Source: a virus
DNA length: 64,000 bases
Strand: one strand, 5' to 3'
Virus record (IMG/VR): IMGVR_UViG_3300018481_000020
Span: 1-64,000 of that record
This document shows, piece by piece, positions 41,231 to 57,183 of the stretch (its first letter is position 1; every line of letters starts with the position of its first letter). The notes under the pieces were generated by a model. It searched no databases and was not told the origin of the DNA. It saw only the letters and a program-made list of their open reading frames with translations. A program made the translations under genes and the position numbers.

Positions 41231-42115
41231 ATGAGGAGTGCGTTCGGAGTCGAGCATGTGGTGGCTGCGCCAGTCTCGAAGTCGCTCAGTGGCGGAGTCT
41301 TCAAGCCGGCCTCGAAGCTGAGCCAGGCTGAGCGCAAGACGGTGGGTGGCTACCGGAAGGCCAAGGGTGTCACCACCAGTGACGCGGAGTGGGCCAGGAA
41401 CATGGGACAGGTCAAGCGACTCCACGACCAGCCCCATCCGGGAATGAGACACACCAAGACGGTGCACGGCAAGCAAGGAACCACTGAGCACTACAAGCAC
41501 AACAGTCGCTCCACCGTGGTGCCACCGGGAGCTGAGGGGTTCCATGTCCGTACCGGGGGCAAGAAGGGCACCTCCTACATCCACATGAAGGACAGCGCTG
41601 GCAAGAGCGTGACCAGGCACGAGGTGGCCCACTCCACCCCGAAACGCACCAGCTACCGGATGAAGCAGATCGTCGACAACCCGAAGAAGACGATGGCCGA
41701 GGAGGGCCGGGCGGACTACGTCGCCTCGGGGCACTACCTGAAGAAGAAGCCCCAGAGTGGCTATGCCCAATCAGCTCGGTACCGCAACGCCGAGGCACGT
41801 GGGGAGAAGAGCGCGAAGAGTGCCCGGAAGTATGGTGGCAAGCCAGCGCGTGGTCTCATGCGCGCAAGAAACGCACCATCTCGGTTCAAGGTGAAGCAAG
41901 CCAGTGGTTCGATGTCTCGAACGATGAACAAGCCAGTGGGTCGTCAGGAGATCGACGAGTACCGCCGGGTGCAGGACAAGATGCATGGCGGAGCTCCGAA
42001 GACTCCCGGGATGAGCACTCGCAAGAAGGTGGCCATCGGAGCCGGCACTACCGGTGTGGCCGGTGGCGGTACCTACGCTGTTTCGCGGAACAGGAAGAAG
42101 AGGTCGAATGGCTGA
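41231..42115 (+). CDS. SAFG-tagged protein with HExxH zinc-peptidase motif, 294 aa
   Basis: The N-terminus carries the tag MRSAFGVEH. RHEVAHS at residues 129-135 is an HExxH zinc site, and EEGRAD about 25 residues later supplies a likely third ligand, as in gluzincin-type peptidases. The middle is very basic. The C-terminus has a Gly-rich hydrophobic stretch (VAIGAGTTGVAGGGTYAV) and a basic tail. It may be a virion-packaged metallopeptidase. It overlaps the portal gene by 8 bases. Confidence 0.65.
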   Translation: MRSAFGVEHVVAAPVSKSLSGGVFKPASKLSQAERKTVGGYRKAKGVTTSDAEWARNMGQVKRLHDQPHPGMRHTKTVHGKQGTTEHYKHNSRSTVVPPGAEGFHVRTGGKKGTSYIHMKDSAGKSVTRHEVAHSTPKRTSYRMKQIVDNPKKTMAEEGRADYVASGHYLKKKPQSGYAQSARYRNAEARGEKSAKSARKYGGKPARGLMRARNAPSRFKVKQASGSMSRTMNKPVGRQEIDEYRRVQDKMHGGAPKTPGMSTRKKVAIGAGTTGVAGGGTYAVSRNRKKRSNG

Positions 42116-43991
42116 CGTGCGGCTCCCTCAGGGCGACATCTCCACCTGGGACGAGGACAACGCAGGGGACGAGGTTCCACAGCGCACCAAGCCCATGGAC
42201 GAGCTGGGTGTCACCGGGGTCAAGCGTGTCTCTGGCTATGTCGATGAGGAGTTCTTGCCGGCGCTTCGGGGCCGCAAGGCGGTCCGGGTCTACCGGGAGA
42301 TGTCTGCCAACGACTCCATGGTCGGTGCGCTGCTGTTCAGTATCGACAAGCTGCTGCGCGAGGTGGAGTGGAAGGTGCTCCCCGCCGAGCAGTCTGATGA
42401 GGGAGTAGCCGCCCAGGAGTTCCTGGAGTCCTGCATGGACGACATGAACGAGCCGTGGGATGGGTTCATCGGTGAGGTGCTCTCGATGATGACCTATGGC
42501 TGGAGCTGGCACGAGATCGTCTACAAGCGCCGGATCGGTCCCTGGGAGAAGGATCCCCGCAAGCGCAGCAAGTACCAGGACGGGCTGATCGGGTGGCGCA
42601 AGATGCCGATCCGGGCCCAGGAGACATTAATGCGCTGGTCCTTCGACGAGACCGGTGGGGTGAAGGCGATGATCCAGATGGCCCCGCCCCGGTACCAGAC
42701 AACGGTGATCCCGATCGAGAAGTCGATCCTGTTCCGGACCGCGATCGCCAAGGGCAACCCCGAAGGCGTCTCGCTGCTGCGTACCGCCTATCGCGCCTGG
42801 TACTTCAAGAAGCGTCTGGAGGAGTTCGAGGCGATCGGTGTCGAGCGCGACCTGGCCGGGATGCCGGTGGCCAAGGTGCCGGCGGACTACCTGACCGCAG
42901 CCAAGGGCACGCCCCAGGCCAAGACGGTGGATGCCTACCGGAAGATGGTCCGTGGGGTGCGGCGGGACGAGAACGAAGGACTGGTGCTCCCGAACCAGTA
43001 CGACCCGGACACCAAGCAGCCACTGTTCGAGTTCGAGCTGATGAGCTCGGGAGGAACCCGGCAGTTCGACACGAACTCGATCATCCAGCGCTACGAGCAG
43101 CGGATCCTGATGAGCGTGCTGGCCGACTTCATCCTGGTCGGGCACGAGTCAACCGGCTCCTACTCGTTGCACACTGACAAGACCGGGATCTTCCGGGCAG
43201 CCCTGAACTCCCTCGTCAAGTCCATCGCGGACACCTTGAACAGGTATGCAGTGCCTCGGCTATTCGCCCTGAACGGCTGGAAGCTCGACGAGCTGCCCAG
43301 GTTCGAGCCCACCAACGTGGACCCGCCCGATCTGACCCAGCTGGCCTCGTTCATCTCGGCCACCGCTGGTTCGGGGATGCAGTGGTTCCCGGACCCGGAG
43401 CTGGAGAAGTACGTGCGCGAGATCGCGCGCCTGCCGGAGATGACGGATGAGGATGTGGACTACAAGCGTCAGATGCGCCAGCAGGAGCAGGCGATGGAGT
43501 TCGCTGGCTCCCAGATGGAGCTGCTCGGGATGAAGCAGAAGGCCGAGATGACCGCTCAGGGATACACGCCGGAGCAGGCCGAGATGGCCGCTGCCTCACC
43601 GACACCGGAGATGGCTGCCCAGGAGGCTGAGCAGGCTCAGATGATGAACCAGCCGCCCCCGGAGGATCCGGCCGAGGGAGCTCGGCACAGCCGAGACCTG
43701 GAGCGGATGACCACCGAGGAGAAGATCGCGGAGAAGACCCATGCTCGGGAGAAGGAGAAGCTGCGGCTCCAGGACACCATGTCCAACCGAGACCACGGTA
43801 GGACCAAGGAGCAGATGCGCCTGAAGGACCGCTCGGCGGCCCAGAATGCGAAACTGACCTCACAGACCCTGAAGGACAAGGCCAAGTACAGCCGGCCCAG
43901 CCAGGGACCTGCGAAGCCACCTGCAAAGAAGCCTCCTGCGAAGAAGTCCAACGTGGCCGCGAAGAAGCCACCACCGAAGAAGAAGAGGTAG
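42108..43991 (+). CDS. portal protein, 627 aa
   Basis: It forms the dodecameric DNA gate and packaging site of the capsid. Features are a DUF935-like portal core (MGALLFSIDKLLREVEWKV-type segment near residue 75, with FIGEVLSMMTYGWSWHEIVYK near 121), a long helical region, and a Lys/Pro-rich C-terminal tail (about 580-627) with Gln/Glu-rich helices before it. I start at ATG 42108 with AAGAGGTCGA upstream. Confidence 0.85.
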   Translation: MADVRLPQGDISTWDEDNAGDEVPQRTKPMDELGVTGVKRVSGYVDEEFLPALRGRKAVRVYREMSANDSMVGALLFSIDKLLREVEWKVLPAEQSDEGVAAQEFLESCMDDMNEPWDGFIGEVLSMMTYGWSWHEIVYKRRIGPWEKDPRKRSKYQDGLIGWRKMPIRAQETLMRWSFDETGGVKAMIQMAPPRYQTTVIPIEKSILFRTAIAKGNPEGVSLLRTAYRAWYFKKRLEEFEAIGVERDLAGMPVAKVPADYLTAAKGTPQAKTVDAYRKMVRGVRRDENEGLVLPNQYDPDTKQPLFEFELMSSGGTRQFDTNSIIQRYEQRILMSVLADFILVGHESTGSYSLHTDKTGIFRAALNSLVKSIADTLNRYAVPRLFALNGWKLDELPRFEPTNVDPPDLTQLASFISATAGSGMQWFPDPELEKYVREIARLPEMTDEDVDYKRQMRQQEQAMEFAGSQMELLGMKQKAEMTAQGYTPEQAEMAAASPTPEMAAQEAEQAQMMNQPPPEDPAEGARHSRDLERMTTEEKIAEKTHAREKEKLRLQDTMSNRDHGRTKEQMRLKDRSAAQNAKLTSQTLKDKAKYSRPSQGPAKPPAKKPPAKKSNVAAKKPPPKKKR

Positions 43992-43993
43992 TC

Positions 43994-44263
43994 ATGTACA
44001 GCGCATTCGGTGTAGATCATGGAGTGGTATCCACGACGACAGTCTCCAAGGGCCTCAACCCGTTCAAGGCGTTCGTGGGAGCGAAGAAGGCCAAGCCGGC
44101 GGCTCAGTTCAAGCCCGTCAATCCCGGAATCAATCCTGGGTTCGGAACTCGAAAGATCGCTCCCGGTGGACCAGTGCAGCGTGGATCCAGTGGTGGCTCG
44201 AACGCCATGGAGGACCAGCGGAAGACCGCTCTAGCTGCGGTACAGAAGCCACGGAAGGTGTAG
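43994..44263 (+). CDS. SAFG-tagged small basic protein, 89 aa
   Basis: It starts MYSAFGVDHGVVSTTTVSK, then is Lys/Pro/Gly-rich and basic, with no membrane segment. The tag and the STTTVSK that follows are shared with the gene at 55632, including 21 identical bases. It is probably disordered, and packaged or scaffold-bound if the tag is a capsid-loading signal. It is placed 2 bases after the portal gene. Confidence 0.65.
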   Translation: MYSAFGVDHGVVSTTTVSKGLNPFKAFVGAKKAKPAAQFKPVNPGINPGFGTRKIAPGGPVQRGSSGGSNAMEDQRKTALAAVQKPRKV

Positions 44264-44265
44264 CC

Positions 44266-47200
44266 ATGCCGTACACGTCAGATGCTCAGCGCAAGTTCAT
44301 GCACGCGAAGCATCCTGAGATCGCGGCGAAGTGGGATGCCGAGATCCGTGGGAAGAAGAAGAAGATCGCGAAGGGCTGGGCCAAGCCGATCGGCATCGGC
44401 GTGGGAGCCAGCGTGCTCGGTGGTGCTGCGGCCAACCAGATTCCTCCAGTGCAGAAGACTGAGTGGTACCAGGAGCGCCGGCGCAAGAAGAAGAAGAAGG
44501 GTCAGATCAAGAAGATGCTGGCCCCGGTCAGCGATGACCCCTTCTTCAACCAGGAGGCGGCCCAGAAGACCTTCGACCTGATCATGAAGATGGACGACGA
44601 CACCGCTGCGGTGTTCTGCTACATCGTCGCCTCGGACCTCCTGGAGCGGGAGGTGGAGGAGAACCGGGTCACCCTGCAGAAGCACCTGGACGAGGTGGTG
44701 GCCAAGCGACTGACTGATCTGAAGAAGGCCACCCTGCGGGCGGTCAGCAAGGGCATGGAGAATCCTCAGCCGTACGCCCAGGCGCTGGCCATGATCGACT
44801 CGATGATCAGCAAGGCTGATGACGACATCCCGGACTGGGAGTTCGAGCGCAAGATCAAGCGCGACCCCTCCTCGGGTCGGTTCCGGACCAAGTTCAGGTC
44901 CACGCCGCTGAAGAAGCCGATGCCAGACAAGACTGCGAAGACGCTGGGGATCGCAGGTATCACCGGTGATAGGTACAAGAACAAAATGAGTCCCAAGGAG
45001 AAGGCCCGCTACCAGCACCAGTACCTGCAGATAGCCGACTTCCTGGGCGCGGTGAATGCTGCCACCGATGGCGACAACGAGACCTTGGTCCACTTCCGGA
45101 ACGAGGCGACCGGAGAGACCTGGGCAGAGAAGGCCACCAGCACCAAGCCCATGACCACCATGCTGGAAGAGAACGTCTGGGCGGTAGCTGCCGAGGCGAA
45201 GCCAACCACCCTGTCCGTGGGCGGGGCGGCGTTCAGCCTGGCTGGAGCAGCCGGCAAGACCATGTCTGCTGATCAGGTGAAGGCCTTCAACACCGCTGGG
45301 GAGAAGAGTGACGAGTGGAAGGCCTCCTGGCTCACCGACGATAACGGGCAGAACCAGAATGCTCGGCTCTACCAGCGCACGCACACTTTGGGGACGGTGG
45401 CCCAGGAGCTGGGGCCTGATGGCAGCAAGGTTCAACTGGCCGGCAAGATGGCCTCGATCGTCGGACAGTACGGACCTCAGGCCGAAGAGGTGCTCGGGCC
45501 CAGTGCCAGGAAGACCGCCTACCGGTACCGGGGCACGGAGCGGACTCCCGACGAGCGGCTGATCGGTATGTACTCCCGGGCTATCGATCAGAACAAGCGC
45601 CAGGGCGGGCTCAACCCCTTCGAGGAACAGGCTGAGAACCGGATCAGGACTGCGCGCGGAGCCAAGAAGCAGCCGTTCGGGTCTGAGACCGGAGTACGTG
45701 GCAAGGGATCTTCGCGGCCTATGGCTCAGCCCGGAGTCACGCCGGCGATCACCCAGATGGTCCGGGAGCGAGAGGCTGCTGCCGGTCGTGCACCGGATTG
45801 GCGTGAGCGGGAGTTGGGCCGGGTGGCAGTACAGCGCTACCTGATGGACGAGCTGCCCTCCAAGAAGTACTACAAGCTCCAGCTGGCATCAGGGAACACG
45901 CCGCCTTCCGAGGGTGTGATCATCAACTCCGAGGGCCAGATCGTCACCCAGGCCGTGGGCTATGGCGATGACCACTACCTGCCGTTCAACCTGAAGAACC
46001 TCAAGGGACTCAAGGGCGGGGAGTACATCCGGAACCGCTCGGTGGGTGGGCTGACCGCCGAGGATGTGTACACCGGGCTGATCAGCGGAGCCCGCCGGGT
46101 GACCGTGGTATCCCGCTCGGGAACGTTCACGATGGAGTTCAAGCCGGACTTCCGGGGTGGTCGGCGGCACAACGACAAGGCTCGGCGGATGACCAGGCGC
46201 TACGAGCAGGTCCTGGATGCGGTGCAGTCTGAGCAGGTAGAGCGGGCCCCCGTGCCGATGCGTTGGCGCAAGATGATCGAGGAAGAGGTCAAGGCCGAGT
46301 ACGGGCCCACTGCTTCACCGCGTCTGGTTCGGGCCGAGATCGATGCTCGGGAGAGGGAGTTCAAGGCCAACCCTCAGGTCAACGGTCGGGACATGGATCG
46401 GGCCGAGGCCAGCATCAGCCAGTTCGAGGAGCAGCAGAAGCGAGGCCTGGTCAGTGCACAGGACGTGGCCGACTACCGCAAGCAAATCCATAGTGAGCTG
46501 CGCGATCTCAAGGAGATCCACTTCCGGCTGAACGGGGTCGGCTACGAGGCTGCCCTGGACTCCTTGCGCGAGCAGTTCCCCTACTACATCGACGCCCAGT
46601 CGCACCCGACCGCAGAGAACCTGGAGGGTGAGATCCAGGAGCACGAGATGGACATGGGCTACGTGGAGCCCGGCCGGAATCGACCCACCTCGGCCCAGGC
46701 TGGCTGGTTCGGCACTCGCAAGGAGGAGAGCGGCAAGTTCTCTGCGGCCTACTCCGATTACCAGCGTGGTCTGCCGGGTACGCCGGAGCCGCACGGGCAC
46801 CCGCGTGAGAAGGGGAAGTTCAAGCCCACCAACGTCACTTCTTCCACCGGCTCTTCTGGCGGCGGTGCGAGTGTAGGCCTGCGTTCGGATCGTGAGCGGA
46901 CTCGGGACGCTGCGATTGAGGCCCTCCAGGCGAACCAGGCCAAGGAAGGTGTGATCAGCTCCGCAGTGGCCCTGCAGCAGGCAGTCAAGGTGCACAAGCC
47001 GCCCACGGGTATCTCCACCCCGGAATGGTGGTATCACTCCGAGGATCAGATGCGGGAGTACCTGGGCAACGATGCGAACCGGAAGAAGTTCGACACCACC
47101 GTCAGCCAGATCGGAGCGGCCGACTTCGATGAGGCCGGAGCCTCACGGCCGTGGCAGGCCTACCAGACCGCCCGCAAGCGCACCGGTGGTGGTAAGCCCT

Positions 47201-47970
47201 ACTCCCCTGAGCACGCAAACACCTGGCCGACGGAGGGCCCGTACAAGTTCACTGGTGACAACGAGCGGGATGCCTACCGGGCCAGCCCGTTGCCCGGTGC
47301 GGTTGATATTGAGGTCAAGCGACTGGATGGTGAGGACACCTCACTGAAGTTCGGTCGACCACTGTCCGCGCTCAACGGCCGTGAACTCCGCGAGGAGTTC
47401 GAGCTGTCCAAGAACGTGCGCGAGGCGATGAAGACTGCGAAGCTGCAGGGCACGGCAGCCCAGGACGCACTGGGCTCGCAGTTCCAGAACTCTGGATCTG
47501 CCTTCGCCAGCAACTTCTTCCGCGACGACGCTGGTGCCGCCAAGCACTTGGAGAACATCCACCGGATGCACCACCTGAAGTCAAAGAGTGGTGGTGGAAC
47601 CACGGGTGGCGGACCTGTCGGTGGAGTCGGTGGCTTCGGACGGCCCACTCCTCCCCGACCTGGTGGACAAGCTCCTAGTGGAGCCAGGGTCCAACCTCCG
47701 CAAGGTGGTGGTGACAGTAGTGGTCGGTTCGTGGAGCTCGACCCAGACGACGAGAGGTTGGTCGAGGACGCTCGTCGGAAGTACCTGAAGGCTGCCGAGC
47801 AACTCATCTTGAATCCGGAGAGTCAAGAAGAACATGATGCGCTGTACATGTTCAAGGAAGGGATGAAGGGGTCTCATCCGGCGAAGGGATTCAATGAGCA
47901 CACCAAGTGGCTCGAAGAGCTGCCTGACAAGACTCGGACGAAGCTATATGCGCAAGCGGGCTACTCGTGA
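44266..47970 (+). CDS. very large unrecognised capsid-region protein, 1234 aa
   Basis: It starts with MPYTSDAQRKFMHAKHPEIA, a motif common in phage head-region proteins. Visible parts are a Gly/Ala-rich hydrophobic stretch near residues 43-60, a Lys-rich stretch, RDPSSGRFRTK near 205 (a motif echoed in the MuF protein), a large central region with long helices near 650-800, and a low-complexity Gly/Pro-rich linker near 1115-1155. I recognise no enzyme. It could be an internal head or ejection protein. Confidence 0.7.
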   Translation: MPYTSDAQRKFMHAKHPEIAAKWDAEIRGKKKKIAKGWAKPIGIGVGASVLGGAAANQIPPVQKTEWYQERRRKKKKKGQIKKMLAPVSDDPFFNQEAAQKTFDLIMKMDDDTAAVFCYIVASDLLEREVEENRVTLQKHLDEVVAKRLTDLKKATLRAVSKGMENPQPYAQALAMIDSMISKADDDIPDWEFERKIKRDPSSGRFRTKFRSTPLKKPMPDKTAKTLGIAGITGDRYKNKMSPKEKARYQHQYLQIADFLGAVNAATDGDNETLVHFRNEATGETWAEKATSTKPMTTMLEENVWAVAAEAKPTTLSVGGAAFSLAGAAGKTMSADQVKAFNTAGEKSDEWKASWLTDDNGQNQNARLYQRTHTLGTVAQELGPDGSKVQLAGKMASIVGQYGPQAEEVLGPSARKTAYRYRGTERTPDERLIGMYSRAIDQNKRQGGLNPFEEQAENRIRTARGAKKQPFGSETGVRGKGSSRPMAQPGVTPAITQMVREREAAAGRAPDWRERELGRVAVQRYLMDELPSKKYYKLQLASGNTPPSEGVIINSEGQIVTQAVGYGDDHYLPFNLKNLKGLKGGEYIRNRSVGGLTAEDVYTGLISGARRVTVVSRSGTFTMEFKPDFRGGRRHNDKARRMTRRYEQVLDAVQSEQVERAPVPMRWRKMIEEEVKAEYGPTASPRLVRAEIDAREREFKANPQVNGRDMDRAEASISQFEEQQKRGLVSAQDVADYRKQIHSELRDLKEIHFRLNGVGYEAALDSLREQFPYYIDAQSHPTAENLEGEIQEHEMDMGYVEPGRNRPTSAQAGWFGTRKEESGKFSAAYSDYQRGLPGTPEPHGHPREKGKFKPTNVTSSTGSSGGGASVGLRSDRERTRDAAIEALQANQAKEGVISSAVALQQAVKVHKPPTGISTPEWWYHSEDQMREYLGNDANRKKFDTTVSQIGAADFDEAGASRPWQAYQTARKRTGGGKPYSPEHANTWPTEGPYKFTGDNERDAYRASPLPGAVDIEVKRLDGEDTSLKFGRPLSALNGRELREEFELSKNVREAMKTAKLQGTAAQDALGSQFQNSGSAFASNFFRDDAGAAKHLENIHRMHHLKSKSGGGTTGGGPVGGVGGFGRPTPPRPGGQAPSGARVQPPQGGGDSSGRFVELDPDDERLVEDARRKYLKAAEQLILNPESQEEHDALYMFKEGMKGSHPAKGFNEHTKWLEELPDKTRTKLYAQAGYS

Positions 47971-49985
47971 CCATTGCGCCGTTCGTCGAGCTCGGGTTCC
48001 ACCCGACTGATCTGCGGCCTGGGGATCTGCCCAAGACCGGGGCATTCCTCGGATCCCCGGCCGAGGCGATGGAGGCCGCGCTGGCCATCGTCCGGGCTCG
48101 GATGGTCGACCAGATGCACGCCGAGATCAAGGGGATCGCACAACCCACTCAAGCCCAGCTGCTGACCATCATGGACCTGGCCTGGCAGGGCATCTTCCCG
48201 GCGTTCCGGAAGGTGTCCGCCCCGATGATGGCCGATGCCTATATCCGGGCATACCGCTCAGCTGATGCCGGTGACGTACCGCTGAGTGTGATCTACGCAC
48301 TGGCTGACAAGCATGCGGAGAAGGTGGGGCTGTACTTCTACGGATCCTCCCGCGAGGCTATGGCCGAGGGGTTCAACACCCTGGTCAACCGGCGATTGCC
48401 GGCCAAGGCTGCTGCTGGGAAGTTGATGGATGCCTGGGGTCTGACTCCACGGCAGGTGCAGGCGTTCATTGCTTCCCAGCAGCTCGATACTCCAGTGAAG
48501 TCGGCGTCCCCATTCGCACTGAAGGCCAGGGCCCGGGCCTACATCGACCGAGCCTTCACCTCCAGGGCCAAGAAGCTGAGTGCTCAGGAGGAGCACAACA
48601 TCGAGGAGCAGGCGAAGCAGTACGCCTGGATGTGGCTCCAGGACAAGGGCCGGCTGTCGAAGAAGGCCCAAAAGATCTGGATCACCGCCAAGGACGAGAA
48701 GGTGTGCAAGGTCTGCGGTCCGCTGAACGGGAAGAAGGTCGGAGTCAATGAGCAGTTCCGCACCCCCAAGGGAGAGTTCTGGACTCCCGGTGTGCACCCG
48801 AACTGCCGCTGCTATATCCGGCTGATCGAGAACCGGTTCTCCAAGTCCGCCTTCGGGATAGTCAGGAAGGACCTGGCCGGCACTGCCCTGGCGGAGTTCA
48901 ACGAGCTGCACCCACGCACGGAGTCAGGTCGGTTCGGTACCAAGGCCCGGACCAAGACCATCGATGTGGATGAGGAGTTCAAGCGGCTGGTGTCCCAGCC
49001 GAGCTTGATCAAGCCGGTACGACACCTCACCTACGCCGATGCCGAGCCTGATCCCGAGATCGACGAGCAGTTCTTCCAGCTGATCTCAGCCCAGCCGAAG
49101 CGGCGGGGGTTCACCTCGGTCTGGGGCAGCCCACTGGAGGTGAAGACCTTCCGGGAGGAGGCAAAAGCACAGATCGCTGATGTCGAGCCGATGATCAACT
49201 TCGCCGCTGACGTGGCGGTAGAACTAAGAGCCAAGTCCAGGCTGGAGACCAAGCCGAAGCAGCGGATGAAGACTCCGACCATCCCTGTCGGGCAGCCGGC
49301 GTTCGCCGTGATCCAGAACGAACTACTTGGAGACGGAGAGATCGACCGGATCCGTTTCAACCACGGCGTCACCTTCCATACCGACGCGATCGGCGCGGCC
49401 CAGGAGGCTGGCGAGCTGAAGAAGGAAATCGTCGATCGCAAGGTGGACGACATGATCGACCAGCTCGCTAAGGATCGTGGGCGGACGGTCAAGATGGAGG
49501 ACCCGAAGACCGGGGAGATGCTCTACGCCAAGATGAGGCCCAAGGACATCGAGGCGATTGCTGACTGGTACGGGCGGAGCGCTACCTCGCATCACCACGA
49601 TGACTTCGATCCTGAAGACCTGGAAGATGAAGGTGCTCAGCTCGACTGGGGGGACCGGGAGGGGACTGTGGTCACTTGGTACAACGAGAAGGGCGAGGCC
49701 TGGGGAACAGACCAGATGTCCTATCGCCATCTAGGTCACACTTACTTTGCGCAACGATCCTCGGACTACGAGGTCTATGTGGCCGGGATTGACCAGATTG
49801 CGACTGATAGTGAAGTGAACGACATCAGCGGTAGCGCGAACAGCAGGCACCGGGAGTTCAGTGTCGATGGCGACTACGTGCTCCGCCCGGAGACAGTGAA
49901 GCGGACCAAGGCTGATCACTTCTACGACGCCACCAGCTTCATGATGGACCCGGAGGGATCCGTGGAACTGCCCAAGGACGAGTAG
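47967..49985 (+). CDS. MuF-like minor capsid protein, 672 aa
   Basis: The SPP1 gp7/Mu F fold is shown by WITAKDEKVCKVCGPLNGK near residues 238-256 and HPNCRCYIR near 277-285, a Cys-His set typical of the family. It contains SAFGIVRKD near 292 and LHPRTESGRFGTK near 311. The remaining 350 residues are unrecognised and acidic toward the end. It probably assists portal assembly or is ejected. GTG start, 4-base overlap. Confidence 0.78.
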   Translation: MTIAPFVELGFHPTDLRPGDLPKTGAFLGSPAEAMEAALAIVRARMVDQMHAEIKGIAQPTQAQLLTIMDLAWQGIFPAFRKVSAPMMADAYIRAYRSADAGDVPLSVIYALADKHAEKVGLYFYGSSREAMAEGFNTLVNRRLPAKAAAGKLMDAWGLTPRQVQAFIASQQLDTPVKSASPFALKARARAYIDRAFTSRAKKLSAQEEHNIEEQAKQYAWMWLQDKGRLSKKAQKIWITAKDEKVCKVCGPLNGKKVGVNEQFRTPKGEFWTPGVHPNCRCYIRLIENRFSKSAFGIVRKDLAGTALAEFNELHPRTESGRFGTKARTKTIDVDEEFKRLVSQPSLIKPVRHLTYADAEPDPEIDEQFFQLISAQPKRRGFTSVWGSPLEVKTFREEAKAQIADVEPMINFAADVAVELRAKSRLETKPKQRMKTPTIPVGQPAFAVIQNELLGDGEIDRIRFNHGVTFHTDAIGAAQEAGELKKEIVDRKVDDMIDQLAKDRGRTVKMEDPKTGEMLYAKMRPKDIEAIADWYGRSATSHHHDDFDPEDLEDEGAQLDWGDREGTVVTWYNEKGEAWGTDQMSYRHLGHTYFAQRSSDYEVYVAGIDQIATDSEVNDISGSANSRHREFSVDGDYVLRPETVKRTKADHFYDATSFMMDPEGSVELPKDE

Positions 49986-50007
49986 CGCAGATGAGGACGA
50001 TGGAGCT

Positions 50008-51048
50008 ATGAGCACAGTGCATGAGCTGCTGGCCACCGACGACACGTTCCGTGAGGTGGCTGATCTGCTGTTCGGTGGGGGCGGGGACCAGCTGATCAGC
50101 AAGATGAACCCGGCCCAGTCCGATGTGGGTTCCCATGGCGGGATGTCGGATCAGAAGAAGCGGAAGATCACCGCCGGCCTGAGCGCAGTAGGTGCGGCTG
50201 CTGGTGGTGCTGGTCTGGCGCTCGGGGGACACAACGTCAGGCGTGGCTACAAGACCGCTCGTGGCCTGCAGAAGGCCGGCCAACTCGCTGGTGGGAAGAA
50301 GAAGGCACTCAAGACTGCCGTCAGTCACGAGAAGCTGGCCACTGGACTGGTTCCACTGGAGATAGCTGGTCTGACCGGTGAGATCGCGGCCACCAAGATC
50401 CTGCACGGGGACACCAAGAAGAAGCAAGGCTCATTGGTCAAGAAGAACCTGGGTGAACTGCTCAACAACGCTTCAGACAAGGCACCGAGCAAGCGGAACG
50501 CTACCAAGGCTGTACTGGACCCGAACAAGCGGCGCAAGGGTCTGGAGTACACCAAGAAGACCGGAGGCGCGCTGCGCCGACTGCCGGACAAGGTGAAGAC
50601 CACCAACGAGGTGAAGAAGTCAGAATCGCCCACAGACCAGGTCGAGGTGGTCTGGGAGGGCGAGATCGCCAAGGCGGACTCCGACAAGCAGCAACTCTTC
50701 GGCTGGGCCTCGGTGATCGAGGTCAACGGCGAGCCGGTGGTGGACCTGCAGGGTGACTACATCTCCGCCGATGAGATGGAGAAGGCCGCCTACTCCTATG
50801 TGCAGAAGTCTCGCAAGGGCGGGGACATGCACCTGCGTGATGAGTGGGAGCCGATCCAGAAGTCGGAGATGATCGAGAGCTTCATCGTCACACCCGAGAA
50901 GCGTGAGGCCATGGGTCTGCCGGAATCGGTGCCCACCGGCTGGTGGGTGGGGTTCAAGGTCAACGACCCCGATGTCTGGTCCAAGGTGAAGTCGGGCGAG
51001 CGGACCGGGTTCTCGATCCACGGGCAGGGTCGGCGCACGCCGGCGTGA
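50008..51048 (+). CDS. XkdF-like capsid maturation protease with N-terminal membrane-like domain, 346 aa
   Basis: Residues about 227-346 match XkdF-type (S78-like) prohead proteases: GWASVIEVNGEPVVDLQGDY, then MHLRDEW with a candidate His, then MIESFIVTP and TGFSIHGQG with candidate Ser. The first 225 residues carry a Gly/Ala hydrophobic stretch (AGLSAVGAAAGGAGLALGG, near 54-72) and many Lys. The family cleaves scaffold and shell during maturation. Confidence 0.72.
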   Translation: MSTVHELLATDDTFREVADLLFGGGGDQLISKMNPAQSDVGSHGGMSDQKKRKITAGLSAVGAAAGGAGLALGGHNVRRGYKTARGLQKAGQLAGGKKKALKTAVSHEKLATGLVPLEIAGLTGEIAATKILHGDTKKKQGSLVKKNLGELLNNASDKAPSKRNATKAVLDPNKRRKGLEYTKKTGGALRRLPDKVKTTNEVKKSESPTDQVEVVWEGEIAKADSDKQQLFGWASVIEVNGEPVVDLQGDYISADEMEKAAYSYVQKSRKGGDMHLRDEWEPIQKSEMIESFIVTPEKREAMGLPESVPTGWWVGFKVNDPDVWSKVKSGERTGFSIHGQGRRTPA

Positions 51049-51052
51049 TCCG

Positions 51053-52369
51053 ATGATCAGCGCATTCGGCGTGGACCACGGGGGCGAGGTCTCGAAACTG
51101 GACGACCAGCAGAAGAAGCAAGCCGCTGCCGGTACCGCCGTAGGAGTCGGTGGGGCTGCGGCTGCCTCCCAGGTCCGGGTGCCCGAGCACTCGCACTACA
51201 ACAAGAAGACCCGGGCCTACCTGCACACACTGCCAGCTGGGGTGCACGAGGTGGACACCGCGATGCTGGGCAAGCGCCCCCGCAAGCTCGGAGCCAGGAA
51301 GCAGCAGACTCCGTACGTGGCCGCGATGGCTCAGGAACGTCCCGCGCCTTACTCGCCGGTGCCGATCACTCGATACAAAGGTGACAAGGGCGTCATCCAG
51401 CGTGACAACGCCCACTCGGTGATGGCAAACGCGATGAAGGGCAGGAAGACCACCATCAAGATCGAGGACTCTCCGCATCACCGTCCGGTTCGTCCCGCTG
51501 GTGAGGAAGCGGTCCGTCGACTCCAGGGCAGGTACCAGCAGCGCCGGCTGAGGCAGAACACGAATCTGTCTGAGAAGAAGATCAACCAGCACGTGAAGGC
51601 ATACAAGCCAAGCTCGCGGAAGGCCAACACCACTAAGCGCCCGCACGGTGTGATCGAGGATCAGATCAAGTCCAGTCGGCACAAGTACGGGGCCAAGGTG
51701 GCCTTGGGTCTGATTCGCAAGGATCAGCGACGCCGAGACACGGCCGCTGGAGCTGCCGGGGTGGCGGGCGGAGGCGTACTGGCCACCACCCCGGTTCGGC
51801 GCTCGGGAGCCAAGGTGAAGATCCACGAGACCAAGTCGGGACCAAGGATCAGGTCAGCCGAGGCCAAGAAGATCGTCAGTCCCGGCTACCGGCCAGGCAA
51901 CCGACGGGCCATCCAGGGGATGGCACACAAGCTGCCGAAGAACGCTCAGGGCCCAACCAAGGTGATCAGATACAAGGGCGGCCAGGTGATCCCCTGGGAC
52001 GGCAACCACCGTGCCACCGCACGGATCGCGCGCGGGGACAAGTCCATCCCGGTCAAGGTGATCGAGGGTGGTGAGCGGCCAGCAGTCAGCGTCACCCGAA
52101 ATGCCATCCATGTGGGACAACAGCGGGTGCACCAGCGTCGGATGAACCGTGGGGACTTCACATCTCTGGGCAAGCCGAGCAAGCCAGGCAAGGCCTACCA
52201 CGCCATCGCCAACGCCTCTCCGACTCGATCCGGCCGCAAGGAGCTGACCACCGTCCGAGCTGCCTCCGGTCCGACCAAGGCAGCGCTGCGTACCAAGCAA
52301 GGTGCGACAGTTACCGCAGGAGCAGCTCTCCTGGGAACTGCTCACCACCTGAACCGGAAGAAGGACTGA
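51053..52369 (+). CDS. SAFG-tagged protein with ParB/sulfiredoxin-like motif, 438 aa
   Basis: MISAFGVDHGGEVSK opens the protein. WDGNHRATARIARGDKSIPV near residue 315 matches the ParB/Srx (D/N)G(N/Q)HR box. ITRYKGDKGVIQRDNAHS near 102 may be a decayed copy. Gly/Ala stretches lie near 27-40, 225-240 and 418-430, the last followed by HHLNRKKD. Its basic character suggests DNA binding. Its place between protease and scaffold suggests a packaged role. Confidence 0.65.
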   Translation: MISAFGVDHGGEVSKLDDQQKKQAAAGTAVGVGGAAAASQVRVPEHSHYNKKTRAYLHTLPAGVHEVDTAMLGKRPRKLGARKQQTPYVAAMAQERPAPYSPVPITRYKGDKGVIQRDNAHSVMANAMKGRKTTIKIEDSPHHRPVRPAGEEAVRRLQGRYQQRRLRQNTNLSEKKINQHVKAYKPSSRKANTTKRPHGVIEDQIKSSRHKYGAKVALGLIRKDQRRRDTAAGAAGVAGGGVLATTPVRRSGAKVKIHETKSGPRIRSAEAKKIVSPGYRPGNRRAIQGMAHKLPKNAQGPTKVIRYKGGQVIPWDGNHRATARIARGDKSIPVKVIEGGERPAVSVTRNAIHVGQQRVHQRRMNRGDFTSLGKPSKPGKAYHAIANASPTRSGRKELTTVRAASGPTKAALRTKQGATVTAGAALLGTAHHLNRKKD

Positions 52370-52370
52370 G

Positions 52371-53261
52371 ATGGCGCGAGCAATGAGCGACACCGAGATC
52401 AGGCATCGCAAGAAGCTCCAGGCCGGGGCCTCCCAGGCTGGCGGCGTGCTCGGACTGACTGCGCTCGGCGGCACCATGGTGGCCAGCAGGGGCGGTCGGA
52501 ACACCCTGCGCAAGATCCCACAGCTGAAGTCGCGACTGGCTGCCCCGCCGCCCAAGGACCCGAACCGGGACCGGATCAAGGGCGCGGTCACCCCAGTGCT
52601 GGCCACCGGGGCTGGTATCGGTGGAGCCTCGGCGTTCAACTTCGCCTCCTATACCCGCGCGGAGTCCAAGAAGCGACAGAAGCCAGCGGTGGTCGGCCAA
52701 CCACCGTCACGGATCAAGAAGAGAGAGGACGAGCCGATGGAGATGGGCTACTACGGTGAGGTCGGCCGTCCCGTCCGACTCACCGAGATCGAGGTGCCAG
52801 TCAGCAAGGCCTGGCAGCCATCGGCCGGGAACTTCGACTCCGAGACCGCTCGGAAGAAGCGGACCAAGGGATACCAGGGCGCTGCCCTGGTCGGGGCGGG
52901 TGCCGGTGGTGCCTATGCCGGACATCACGGGATGAAGGCCGCACACGCGGCTGGCAAGATCAAGCCAGTCTCGATGGGCCTCATGGAGACCAGGACGGTT
53001 GACGCCCATGGGACCACCCGCCGGGTGCCGAAGGTGGCCGGCAGAAGGGGTTCCAAGAAGGCGCACGTGATCGAGGAGAAGGCGATCCCGACGAAGGCGC
53101 TGAAGGCTGCTGGCAAGCATGGTGGTCGAACTGCCCTTGGAGTGGGTGCGGTGGCCGCTGCTGCCGGCACTCATCGGGCGCTGAAGCGCAAGGAGAAGGG
53201 CTCCTGGCAGCCATATGCGAAGCGTGACTCGGCCAGCGCGTTCGGAATCAACCACGCATGA
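52371..53261 (+). CDS. basic protein with several Gly/Ala membrane-like segments and C-terminal SAFG tag, 296 aa
   Basis: Hydrophobic Gly/Ala segments occur near residues 18-40, 72-95, 165-180 and 250-268, separated by Lys/Arg-rich loops. The last residues are SASAFGINHA, a C-terminal form of the tag. No enzyme motif is visible. It could be a multi-pass membrane-inserting virion protein. ATG 52371 follows the upstream stop by one base. Confidence 0.6.
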   Translation: MARAMSDTEIRHRKKLQAGASQAGGVLGLTALGGTMVASRGGRNTLRKIPQLKSRLAAPPPKDPNRDRIKGAVTPVLATGAGIGGASAFNFASYTRAESKKRQKPAVVGQPPSRIKKREDEPMEMGYYGEVGRPVRLTEIEVPVSKAWQPSAGNFDSETARKKRTKGYQGAALVGAGAGGAYAGHHGMKAAHAAGKIKPVSMGLMETRTVDAHGTTRRVPKVAGRRGSKKAHVIEEKAIPTKALKAAGKHGGRTALGVGAVAAAAGTHRALKRKEKGSWQPYAKRDSASAFGINHA

Positions 53262-53301
53262 GTGGACAGCACCGTGAGACTGAGAACTAGAGGTAGATGA
53301 A

Positions 53302-54132
53302 ATGCCACGTCCAAGGATGAACTTGACCGACATGGATATCGATGAGATCTCCACGGTCGACAAGGCAGCGAACCAGCTCTCGCGGTTCGTCATCGCGAAG
53401 AGGGCTCCCGAGGAGGATGAGATGCCCAAGCTTTTCAACCAGGAGGGACAGCCCCTCGATGAGCAGGACCTTGAGTTCGGTGATGTTGTGTTCGACGACC
53501 AGGGCAATGCCTATGAGTACGTCGAAGACGGCGACACCGAAGAGTACGAAGTGCACGAAGAAGAGTCTCAGCCAGAGCTTGCCGGAGTCGGCAAGCGGGC
53601 ACCGGAACAGTCCGCCTTCTTCGAGAACAAGCCTCAGCAGGGCTCGTTCACTGCATCGGTGATGGAGGAGCTCTCCAAGGCGTTCTCCGATGAGGATCGC
53701 GACCAGGTGATCGCCAAGGCGCTGGGTCGGGTCGAGCAGATCGAGTCCCAGTTCAGTGAGGTCGCCAAGGCGGCCCAGGCTGAGCGCGACCTTCGGCTCA
53801 CTCGGGAGTACATCTCCAAGGCCGCCGAGTACAACCTCCCGGTCGACGCAGCTGAGCTTGGTCCGGTGCTCTACCGGATGGCCGAGCAGATGAGCTATGA
53901 CGACTGCTCGGTGATCGCCAAGTGCCTGGAGACGGCCGGCGAGATCATCTACGAAGAGGTCGGCTACCAGGGTGGCGGCGACAACGCCGATGTCTACTCC
54001 CAGGTCGCGCAGCACGCCTACGACACATTCGGCAAGGCCGAGGACTTCACTGAGGTCACGGCCATCAACAAGGTGTTCGACGACAACCCGGATGCCTACG
54101 ACGAGTACCTGGCCGCGCAGCGGAACCAGTAG
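53302..54132 (+). CDS. scaffolding protein, 276 aa
   Basis: The N-terminus (DIDEISTVDKAANQ) is the terminal motif of XkdF-type proteases, suggesting that this gene was once continuous with a protease. Most of the rest is acidic and helical (VMEELSKAFSDEDRDQVIAKAL, then VEQIESQFSEVAKAAQAE), as expected for a capsid scaffold. It lies before decoration and capsid genes, the standard order. AGAGGTAGATG lies just upstream of the ATG. Confidence 0.8.
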   Translation: MPRPRMNLTDMDIDEISTVDKAANQLSRFVIAKRAPEEDEMPKLFNQEGQPLDEQDLEFGDVVFDDQGNAYEYVEDGDTEEYEVHEEESQPELAGVGKRAPEQSAFFENKPQQGSFTASVMEELSKAFSDEDRDQVIAKALGRVEQIESQFSEVAKAAQAERDLRLTREYISKAAEYNLPVDAAELGPVLYRMAEQMSYDDCSVIAKCLETAGEIIYEEVGYQGGGDNADVYSQVAQHAYDTFGKAEDFTEVTAINKVFDDNPDAYDEYLAAQRNQ

Positions 54133-54150
54133 GAAAGGTAGGGAAGCTCG

Positions 54151-54555
54151 ATGGCATACGAAGAGAGCCTCAGATCCATCACGCTGAACGCGGATGCGTC
54201 TCTGGGCATCTACACGGGCGTGCCGGGCCAGCCGGGCTCCCCCGATCCTCACGGAGCGAAGCAGTATCACTTCGTGAAGGTGACTGGGGTCCACCAGGTA
54301 GGTCTCGCCGACGCTGCCGCCACTACGGTGGTCGGGGTGCTGCAGAACAAGCCTCAAGGTCCAGGCCAGGCTGCCACGGTCGGCTACCACGGAGTGACCA
54401 AGGTCGTCTCCGACGTGGCGCTCACCGCTGGTGACCCGATCAAGGTCAGTGCCGATGGCCAAGCCGCGAAGACCGGAGCTGGTCCCACTGTCGGGATCGC
54501 GCTCAACACCACTGCTACCGCTGGAGAACTCGCCGTTGTTCTCCTGACGATCTGA
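54151..54555 (+). CDS. capsid decoration protein (DUF2190-like), 134 aa
   Basis: The compact, strand-rich and neutral sequence (VVGVLQNKPQGPGQAATVGY, then GDPIKVSADGQA) matches small head-stabilising proteins of DUF2190 type. It sits between scaffold and major capsid genes, as usual. It probably trimerises on the shell. Confidence 0.75.
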   Translation: MAYEESLRSITLNADASLGIYTGVPGQPGSPDPHGAKQYHFVKVTGVHQVGLADAAATTVVGVLQNKPQGPGQAATVGYHGVTKVVSDVALTAGDPIKVSADGQAAKTGAGPTVGIALNTTATAGELAVVLLTI

Positions 54556-54568
54556 GAGGAGTCAAGAC

Positions 54569-55567
54569 ATGCCGAACCCCACTCAGAGCGATCTCCACGT
54601 CAACGTTCCGCTGACCAACGTCAGCGTCGCGTACATGCAGGACAAGGCGACGTTCATCGCGGACAAGGTGTTCCCGAGAGTTCCGGTCAACAAGCAGAGC
54701 GACCTGTACTGGAAGTACTCGAAGTCCGATTGGCGTCGTACCGACGCGCAGAAGCGTGCGCCCGGTACCGAGACTGCTGGTGTTGGCTGGAAGGTCGACA
54801 CGGGGCAGTACTTCGCCGAGGTCTGGGGTGTCCACAAGGACATCGACGACCAGGTGCGGGCCAACGCCGACAGCAACTGGCGGCTGGACTCGGACGCCAC
54901 CACCTTCGTCACGAACCAGCTCCTGCTGCGCCGTGACCTGGACTGGAACGACAAGTTCTTCAAGACCGGCCAGTGGGGTACCGACCTCGCCGGAGTCACC
55001 GGGACTGTAGGTGCTGGTCAGTTCCTGCAGTGGAGCGACCCGAACTCAGACCCGATCGTGCAGTTCTCGGACTTGCAGACCAACTTCGTGGAGCAGTCTG
55101 GTCGCAAGGCCAACACGATGGTCCTCGGAGCGCGAGCGATCACCCAGCTGAAGAACCACCCGGACATCATTGACCGGATCAAGTACACCCAGCGTGGTGT
55201 GGTGACCACCGATCTGCTCGCCAGCCTGTTCGATGTCGAGCGGATCCTGGTCAGCTACGCGACGGTGACCGACGTGGCCGAGATCAACGACGCCAAGGCT
55301 CAGGACGCTGCGGCGACGTACCGGTTCATGTCCAACTCCAAGTCGGCGCTGCTCTGCTACACCCCGAGCTCGCCGTCGCTGATGACGCCGGCCGCTGGCT
55401 ATTGCTTCACCTGGAACGGATACCTGGCTGGCAACAAGTTCGGGATCCGGATCAAGAACTTCCGGATGGAGCCGATCGCTGCGGACCGCATCGAGGGAGA
55501 AATGACCTACGACATGCGCGTCGTGGCGCGGGACATGGGCATCTTCCTGTCCAACGCTGTGGCCTGA
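54569..55567 (+). CDS. major capsid protein, 332 aa
   Basis: Length, position and features such as DKVFPRVPVNKQSDLYWKY near residue 34, GWKVDTGQYFAEVWGVHKDI near 71 and DVERILVSYATVTDVAEIND near 221 fit HK97-fold shell proteins of actinophages. It lies 13 bases after the decoration gene. A terminator follows, as is common after the most abundant virion protein. Confidence 0.88.
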   Translation: MPNPTQSDLHVNVPLTNVSVAYMQDKATFIADKVFPRVPVNKQSDLYWKYSKSDWRRTDAQKRAPGTETAGVGWKVDTGQYFAEVWGVHKDIDDQVRANADSNWRLDSDATTFVTNQLLLRRDLDWNDKFFKTGQWGTDLAGVTGTVGAGQFLQWSDPNSDPIVQFSDLQTNFVEQSGRKANTMVLGARAITQLKNHPDIIDRIKYTQRGVVTTDLLASLFDVERILVSYATVTDVAEINDAKAQDAAATYRFMSNSKSALLCYTPSSPSLMTPAAGYCFTWNGYLAGNKFGIRIKNFRMEPIAADRIEGEMTYDMRVVARDMGIFLSNAVA

Positions 55568-55582
55568 TCACACGATCTGAGG

Positions 55583-55616
55583 TGGGCTGTGGGTTAACCT
55601 CCTGCAGCCCATCTTT
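55583..55616 (+). terminator. terminator after the major capsid gene
   Basis: TGGGCTG (55583-55589) and CAGCCCA (55605-55611) form a stem with GTTAAC in the loop, followed by TCTTTC. It would reduce transcription into the connector genes while leaving capsid mRNA abundant. Confidence 0.7.
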
Positions 55617-55631
55617 CAATAGGAGCCAAGG

Positions 55632-55964
55632 ATGGAATCAGCGTTCGGTGTAGACCACGGAGAGATCTCCACGACGACAGTCTCCAAGTTCGCATCCACT
55701 CTCGTTGCTGGTGGCGCTGGTGGTGTTGCTGGATCCAAGCGAGCCAAGAAGAAGTACAAGAGTCAGGCGGCAACTTCGGGAATGCTGCGTACTGCAGGTG
55801 GCGAGCTCGCTGGCCAGACGGTTGGCGGTCTAGCTGGATTGGCTGCTGCTCGGGGTCGGCCAACTGGGATCCTGGCTGGCGGCGCAGCTGGCAGTGTCGG
55901 GGGCGGCGTCCTCGGCAACGCATCAGCACGCGGGAAGGCCAAGCGCGAGGGGTGGACGAAGTAG
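55632..55964 (+). CDS. SAFG-tagged Gly/Ala-rich membrane-like protein, 110 aa
   Basis: It begins MESAFGVDHGEISTTTVSK. Two Gly/Ala-rich hydrophobic parts (near residues 22-35 and 60-98) surround a Lys-rich segment (KRAKKKYK). The tail is basic. The composition fits a glycine-zipper membrane hairpin. AGGAG precedes the ATG. Confidence 0.65.
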   Translation: MESAFGVDHGEISTTTVSKFASTLVAGGAGGVAGSKRAKKKYKSQAATSGMLRTAGGELAGQTVGGLAGLAAARGRPTGILAGGAAGSVGGGVLGNASARGKAKREGWTK

Positions 55965-56489
55965 ATGCCCAGTCAACTGCTCGCCAACGACAAGATCTCC
56001 TTCGTGGTCTGCAAGCCGTTCACCTCGCGCGGCAAGGACTACCAGACAGGTGACGACTTCCCGCAGGAGGAAGCCCGAGACATCGAGGTGTTCGTCCGAG
56101 CCCGGTTCGTGATCCCGGTGGTCGACGACATCGAGGACAAGAAGTTCATCCGGCACTGGCACAAGGAGATCCGCCCCAAGGACGAGGTGCTGGCCCGGCT
56201 GTTCCATGACCGGGTCCAGCTGCGGATGCACCACGAGCCGGACTCCGAAGAGGTGGTCAGCATCGAGAAGCTGGTCCGTCCGAACTCTCCGGACGTGCCA
56301 GACGACGATGGTCAGCCCGAGCTGCCCTTCGATGAGCCCGCCGTGGCGGCCCACAAGGACCAGTACGACCCCAGCTACCACACGGTGGTCGAGGTCAACG
56401 AGTACCTGGCTGTCCATCCAGAGGAGCGAGAGCGCATTCTCGAAGATGAGCGCGGCGGCAAGAACCGCAAGGGAATCTTGGAGGTGTGA
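55965..56489 (+). CDS. head-tail connector-region protein, 174 aa
   Basis: The C-terminal segment (TVVEVNEYLAVHPEERERIL) is a motif I recall after major capsid genes in actinophages (TVxEVxxYxxxxPxRxxxxL). The central part is acidic. It may be a connector or minor head protein. Its ATG directly follows the preceding stop. Confidence 0.65.
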   Translation: MPSQLLANDKISFVVCKPFTSRGKDYQTGDDFPQEEARDIEVFVRARFVIPVVDDIEDKKFIRHWHKEIRPKDEVLARLFHDRVQLRMHHEPDSEEVVSIEKLVRPNSPDVPDDDGQPELPFDEPAVAAHKDQYDPSYHTVVEVNEYLAVHPEERERILEDERGGKNRKGILEV

Positions 56490-56842
56490 TGACGACCAGT
56501 GCATTCGGAGTCGACCACGGCTTCGAGGATGTTGAGAAGGCTTTCGGCATGGGCGGCGGTGGCGCGTTGGGCGGTGGCCTGCGCAAGCTCGGTCAGAACA
56601 TCGGGATGGGCGCGCGCAAGGGTGCGGCCGGAGCCGGCAAGATGGCCCGGCCCAACGTCGGTGCGGGCGGGGCTCGTGGAGTTCTGGGTAGGGGCCAGGT
56701 TCAGGCCGGTCGTGGTCTGAAGCAGGCTAGTAACTTCGCCATGAAGCGGCCCGGACTCACTGGCGGGCTCGCCGCCGGCGGTACAGCTGGTGCCGTCGGT
56801 GGCGGTGGGTACGCCATGGGGAACCGCCGTAGGCAGTACTGA
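56489..56842 (+). CDS. SAFG-tagged Gly-rich small protein, 117 aa
   Basis: After MTTSAFGVDHG come VEKAFGMGGGGALGGG, a Gly/Arg-rich middle, and a final Gly/Ala hydrophobic stretch (GLAAGGTAGAVGGGGYAM) with a basic NRRRQY end. ATG 56489 overlaps the upstream stop (TGATG) and is preferred over GTG 56486. It is likely membrane-inserting. Confidence 0.65.
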   Translation: MTTSAFGVDHGFEDVEKAFGMGGGGALGGGLRKLGQNIGMGARKGAAGAGKMARPNVGAGGARGVLGRGQVQAGRGLKQASNFAMKRPGLTGGLAAGGTAGAVGGGGYAMGNRRRQY

Positions 56843-57183
56843 TGTACAGCGCGTTCGGGGTCGACCATGGAGACATCTCCAAGGGCCTCAAGCTGAGCTG
56901 GGCCAAGCGACCCAGGAAGCTGACCCGTGCCCAGATACGCACTCAGGGCCAGGGCACTGGCAAGGGCACCCGGACCGAAGCCGTCACCAGGAAGCTGAAG
57001 AACGCCACCGAGACTCCCGTCTCGATCGCCGGCACGGGTCGCGCTGCTGGTCGAGGTATCACTGGAACTGGCGCGTTCATGCAGAACCACCCTGGGGTCA
57101 CCGGCTCCGCTCTGGTGGGAGGGGGCGGAGCAGCCGCGTATCACCACCTGAAGCAGAAGGAACCGAAGCGGAGGTCATCCTGA
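56842..57183 (+). CDS. SAFG-tagged small basic protein, 113 aa
   Basis: The protein starts MYSAFGVDHGDISKG and is Lys/Arg-rich, ending in a Gly/Ala stretch (GVTGSALVGGGGAAAY) and a basic KEPKRRSS tail. It uses TGATG overlaps at both ends. It is clearly a relative of the neighbouring tagged genes in design, though the middle is different. Confidence 0.65.
   Translation: MYSAFGVDHGDISKGLKLSWAKRPRKLTRAQIRTQGQGTGKGTRTEAVTRKLKNATETPVSIAGTGRAAGRGITGTGAFMQNHPGVTGSALVGGGGAAAYHHLKQKEPKRRSS

Follow-up and report, generated by a model that had tools for sequence, protein, structure and literature searches.

The window, by which we mean the whole 64,000-nucleotide stretch of viral DNA that was analyzed, contains six forward-strand open reading frames (ORFs) that open with SAFGV[DE]H at residues 3 to 10. 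They start at 41231 (MRSAFGVEH), 43994 (MYSAFGVDHG), 51053 (MISAFGVDHG), 55632 (MESAFGVDHG), 56489 (MTTSAFGVDHG; alternative open GTG start at 56486), and 56842 (MYSAFGVDHG). A seventh copy, SAFGINHA followed by the stop codon, forms the C-terminal end of the 52371 ORF. All seven lie where a preliminary description of this DNA had placed them. The genes of the head block are the following (aa, amino acids):

41231..42115, + strand: tagged protein 1, 294 aa; tag core 41237-41257, trailing VSK at residues 15-17
42108..43991, + strand: portal protein (Portal_Mu), untagged in the window
43994..44263, + strand: tagged protein 2, 89 aa; MYSAFGVDHG...TVSK, tag core 44000-44020
47967..49985, + strand: MuF-like protein; weak or degenerate internal SAFGIVRKD at 48846, preceded by an FSK(A) site
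50008..51048, + strand: prohead protease, XkdF-like (Peptidase_S78_2), untagged
51053..52369, + strand: tagged protein 3, 438 aa; MISAFGVDHGGEVSK
52371..53261, + strand: C-terminally tagged protein, 296 aa; ends with YAKRDSASAFGINHA and the stop codon, tag core 53235-53255
53302..54132, + strand: presumed scaffold, pI 4.1
54151..54555, + strand: presumed head decoration protein (from position and homologues), untagged
54569..55567, + strand: major capsid protein (lambda gpE-like), no tag; the tag variants follow its tree
55632..55964, + strand: tagged protein 4, 110 aa; MESAFGVDHGEISTTTVSK
56489..56842, + strand: tagged protein 5, 117 aa; MTTSAFGVDHGFEDVEK; Gly/Ala-rich body
56842..57183, + strand: tagged protein 6, 113 aa; MYSAFGVDHGDISK

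Positions 44266 to 47970 encode a 1234-aa protein that starts with MPYTSDAQRKFMHAKHPEIAAKWDAE; the same N-terminal motif stands on other proteins of two relatives (L166 and L177) and is possibly a second shared head signal. Upstream of the block lie a 2424-aa fibre-like protein (24863 to 32137), in which many collagen-like GPQGxxG repeats alternate with TYTWxKY repeats, and an 833-aa protein (38696 to 41197) that contains a DUF4082 domain along with a QAxASLxATSTL repeat in many copies.

The chance expectation for SAFG[VI][DEN]H over all six-frame ORFs was 5e-4 copies, and 300 ORF shuffles yielded no copy. In the whole 81,457-bp IMG/VR record containing the window, a degenerate DNA pattern gave seven forward and zero reverse matches, and the reversed-pattern control gave none. 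The codons of the tag differed synonymously among the copies, with 114 different 21-mers in 128 N-terminal copies. This free variation indicates that conservation of the tag acts at the protein level. It also bears on the idea that the repeat is a translated DNA or RNA element serving translation control or recombination. Although the usual position at gene starts would suit such an element, the synonymous variation at all codons, the C-terminal and internal copies, and the lack of opposite-strand matches largely refute it, and we consider its probability negligible.

An internal copy in MuF (SAFGIVRKD), also listed in the preliminary description, was not convincing. The [DE]H is missing from it, 10 MuF homologues do not keep it, and MuF was not supported as a genuine tagged protein. 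At the same place, the homologues mostly have an [F/V/L]xK(A) site, which is ENRFSK(A) in the closest ones.

Proteins behind the tag

As previously proposed, the bodies behind the tag differ. Peptidase-like, ParB/sulfiredoxin-like, GNAT acetyltransferase, and Gly-zipper bodies were recognized; most others were not, and Pfam, PHROGs, and NCBIfam recognized almost none. The body of tagged protein 1 has an HExxH...EExRAD signature suggestive of a zinc metallopeptidase. Residues H130, E131, H134, E157, E158, R160, A161, and D162 were invariant across 7 homologues, as was the tag; the AlphaFold model of this protein was poor (mean pLDDT, 45). The body of tagged protein 3 was modeled as two tandem ParB/sulfiredoxin-like domains, the second of which has a DGNHRA motif; the model is a fold hint only (best E, 6e-3, sulfiredoxin/ParB). 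Residues 1 to 46 of this model had low confidence, and the tag region was low in both AlphaFold models. The cluster of tagged protein 6 comprises 16 homologues with a C-terminal hydrophobic stretch rich in glycine. Many other cargo bodies also have Gly-rich, sometimes Gly-zipper-like stretches.

After duplicate removal, 155 tagged proteins fell into approximately 81 body clusters, 62 of them with a single member, some of which may be remote kin. Alignment of 126 complete N-terminal cases gave the consensus MxSAFGVDHGExSK, with no conserved body beyond it. In the three best-sampled slots, the 8-residue tag was 90 to 95% identical between matching proteins, whereas the bodies were 32 to 41% identical, against a shuffled-body baseline of 28%. 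The capsid proteins of most of the phages compared were 92 to 96% identical to that of the window. A functionless relic of neighbor-gene duplication or recombination would account for tagged genes being adjacent and sometimes fused together. However, such a relic is very improbable, since the tag stayed nearly identical in slots where the bodies approach shuffled similarity, and C-terminal copies persist.

Furthermore, the tagged proteins were basic. A pI above 9.5 was calculated for 62 of 63 tagged genes but for only 9% of 765 other genes (11 records), the sole tagged exception being the doubtful MuF. This contrast is conservative, because the peptidase gene of the window was called with a wrong start and placed among the untagged genes.

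Distribution and lineage variants of the tag

An exact scan of IMG/VR returned 68 stretches matching AGYGCNTTYGGNGTNGAYCAYGG. The matches were tags, often several per contig, except for one nongenic sequence in three contigs. Nearly all were terminal tags and mostly adjoined head genes. In 16 of the matching IMG/VR records, searched whole, each record had 1 to 9 matches on one strand, and the control pattern gave no matches; relatives in IMG/VR carried up to nine tag copies, all on the coding strand. Among genomes of bacteria and archaea totaling 257 Gb, the same pattern matched 16 times, and none of these matches was tag-like. This ruled out a widespread chance motif and removed the concern, raised at the outset, that the motif might be common in unrelated non-head proteins. 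The positions S-A-F-G-x-x-H were built into the search expressions, and their invariance is thus partly by construction; a second, looser expression, with other letters permitted at most positions, found almost only SAFG. No occurrence of SAFGVDHG was found in the literature searched.

In syntenic records, the gene order was terminase, a tagged gene, portal, a tagged gene, the 1234-aa protein, MuF, XkdF protease, a tagged gene, the C-terminally tagged gene, scaffold, decoration, capsid, a tagged gene, g55965, two tagged genes, connector, a tagged gene, and tail genes. Among the relatives of the window, no tag was found on terminase, protease, scaffold, decoration, capsid, connector, or tail-tube proteins. 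One portal among some 25 was tagged: the divergent protein at L050:1500-3290 (+), which has the C-terminal end KVGKSAFGIEHQ / KRKVGKSAFGIEHQ. In known portals, the C terminus points to the lumen. An 829-aa protein (G006) with a tag at both ends is a fusion of two neighbors, and in cargo-tag-cargo fusions of other phages the tags sit at the fusion points. Tags at N termini, C termini, both ends, and fusion points fit what would be expected of a docking peptide.

We then compared the tags with the capsid tree. Most relatives with at least 75% capsid identity carried SAFG tags, the exception being L175, a fragment. A clade at 67 to 71% identity carried SVWGVDH, SPWGVDH, or SYWGIDH, and a clade at 57% identity carried mostly NAFG (NAFGVEH). 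The SVWG/SPWG/SYWG phages formed one clade and the NAFG phages another, each monophyletic in the capsid tree. An [IV][SA]K triplet was kept in 12 of 12 variant tags examined. The SVWG clade is separated from the SAFG phages by 14 capsid, 9 scaffold, 5 decoration, and 2 protease positions. Choosing a receptor by covariation was abandoned, because these positions are spread over several head proteins and are too confounded by ancestry.

No tags were found in L172 (74% capsid identity) or in a further clade (L186 and L191 to L196), of which the members inspected also lacked most of the basic accessory genes. In another tagless relative (L190:4773-6499), untagged basic Gly/Ala-rich proteins occupy the same slots, showing that basic cargo need not always carry the tag. 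The tagged phages are uncultured tailed phages whose hosts are probably actinobacterial. The nearest cultured relatives have capsid proteins of at most 47% identity and are tagless; no tag was found in the head regions of Kovu, Ottawa, and ValentiniPuff or in MT835491.

The expected location of the tagged genes in the head block was confirmed for most of them but failed for some tagged genes of relatives, which lie well outside the block. These few distant genes, together with the Gly-rich and sometimes Gly-zipper-like bodies, would agree with a tag that joins cargo proteins to each other or to a noncapsid partner, such as an assembly site, the membrane, or the tail machinery. We regard this as rather improbable, given that most tagged genes keep a fixed order, interleaved among the head genes, that the variants track capsid lineages, and that the tail-tube protein has no tag. 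In summary, the tag is a peptide under selection at the protein level, tolerant of position and matched to lineage, that stands on basic accessory proteins with hypervariable bodies.

The trailing triplet, the scaffold, and proposed head loading

Of 126 N-terminal tags, 117 have an [IV][SAE]K triplet no more than 14 residues after the core, compared to 4% for random stretches taken from these proteins (the test pattern as run was [IVLFYM][SAGET]K). In C-terminal and internal tags, the triplet lies upstream, within 12 residues, in 20 of 26 cases versus 9% in the control; the other six are without a clear upstream site. The spacing between core and triplet is variable, and the two parts are thus separable.

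The same lysine context was enriched in the scaffold, where 8 of 12 lysines lie inside [IVLF][SAGE]K against an expectation of 0.85; no other gene of the record reaches this fraction. The residue after these triplets is usually Ala or Ser. Divergent scaffolds showed the same enrichment, which we counted as one lineage-wide fact, since the scaffolds are homologous. The capsid protein had no lysine in this context. Pooled homologues are not independent of one another, and a broad count of [IVLF][SE]K across families was therefore dropped in favor of testing lysine contexts. Many protease homologues have an N-terminal [LIV]xK[MA] site, which is LISKM in the window protease. In most main-clade SAFG phages, scaffold residues ~104 to 108 form a conserved tag-like (G)KSAFF stretch (SAFGK in L166); it is absent from the scaffolds of the SVWG and NAFG lineages.

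The HK97 prohead protease cleaves at K103/S104 (PMC10275583). Together with this cut, the presence of the triplet behind the tags and its abundance in the acidic scaffold led us to read it as a candidate maturation-protease cleavage site. The recurring scaffold site could also be a structural repeat rather than a site of cleavage.

Alternatively, the whole motif might be only a recognition and cleavage signal for the prohead protease, the tag being a propeptide and the cargo entering by charge. The processing-site-like triplet common to tags and scaffold is compatible with this, as is the opposite charge of the basic cargo and the acidic scaffold. Nevertheless, we consider it unlikely: the triplet is much less conserved than the SAFGVDH core, which lies at a variable distance from it, and this core is absent from the scaffold, the would-be main substrate, which in the main clade has only the SAFF stretch.

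With a probability of roughly 0.7, we favor reading the tag as an address for capsid loading, one that would later be removed. A T4-like loading signal had been suggested by analogy in the preliminary description, and the basic cargo, the untagged assembly machinery, and the capsid-following variants support it, as do the C-terminal tag of the portal and the trailing site in common with the scaffold. From these patterns we infer docking, loading, cleavage, and ejection. The core SAFG[VI][DE]H(G) would dock cargo on some conserved protein surface inside the prohead during head assembly, candidates being the scaffold, the inner face of the capsid protein, and the protease. After shell closure, the XkdF-type protease would cleave the nearby [IV][SAE]K site; since this site recurs in the scaffold, cutting would release the cargo and clear the scaffold at once. 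The strongly basic cargo would remain with the DNA and probably enter the host alongside it. If a short tag suffices, the cargo bodies would be freely exchangeable.

We give even odds to a more detailed version of the loading address. Here, a position-independent, removable packaging tag would serve up to nine interchangeable and possibly ejected effectors (peptidase-like, ParB/Srx-like, acetyltransferase, and Gly-zipper proteins), tag and receptor would co-evolve within each lineage, and an XkdF-type protease cutting at lysine would both remove the tags and dismantle the scaffold.

The bodies of internal phage proteins change so rapidly that such proteins are hard to spot from sequence. A tag that can be read from DNA makes approximately 155 unannotated genes predicted internal proteins, and its triplet offers a testable guess at the specificity of XkdF-type head proteases. 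If the loading role is correct, the compact peptide could also help to load reporters into heads in the laboratory.

Comparison with known targeting systems

Encapsulin cargo-loading peptides are short terminal peptides that dock unrelated cargo inside an HK97-fold shell. They are mainly C-terminal and are retained, and no genome is packaged.

The T4 capsid-targeting sequence (CTS) is an N-terminal peptide of ~10 residues on the internal proteins IPI, IPII, IPIII, and Alt (PMC9026906, PMC9958956). Its residues 4 and 7 act in targeting and its residues 8 and 10 in processing (PMC9026906). As judged from sequence, the tag resembles it as a short N-terminal peptide on basic, variable, otherwise different proteins of the head block. 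By analogy, a targeting part would again be followed by a separate processing part, with cleavage here being a candidate step. However, the CTS sequence is unrelated to SAFGVDH, and T4 gp21 cuts after Glu, while the candidate site of the tagged phages ends in Lys. CTS proteins are few in T4, whereas the tagged phages have up to nine tag copies per genome, at C termini as well. Moreover, the tagged phages are siphovirus-like, with an XkdF-type protease and a lambda-type capsid. Since the protease family (Peptidase_S78_2), the candidate cleavage residue, and the gpE-like capsid all differ, the tag does not belong to the T4 CTS family. Protease, candidate site, and capsid relatives alike speak against common ancestry with the CTS/gp21 system, and the tag is best read as having arisen independently.

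In P1, an N-terminal signal directs the ejected defense protein DarB into the head, and DarA is processed by the prohead protease (PMC9024508, PMC12810830). These signals are known for individual proteins, in contrast to one short motif on many. The ejected inner-head proteins of SPN3US and phiKZ have N-terminal propeptides that the prohead protease removes and for which a loading role was proposed (PMC5694885); these are mostly ~80 to 130 residues long and are cut after Glu, unlike the tag of ~14 residues. If the loading role is true, capsid targeting is not peculiar to T4 and P1 but is a strategy with independent origins. While capsid targeting in T4 and P1 was known, the basic pI of the tagged proteins, the two-part tag, the sharing of its triplet with the scaffold, and the capsid-following variants are new.
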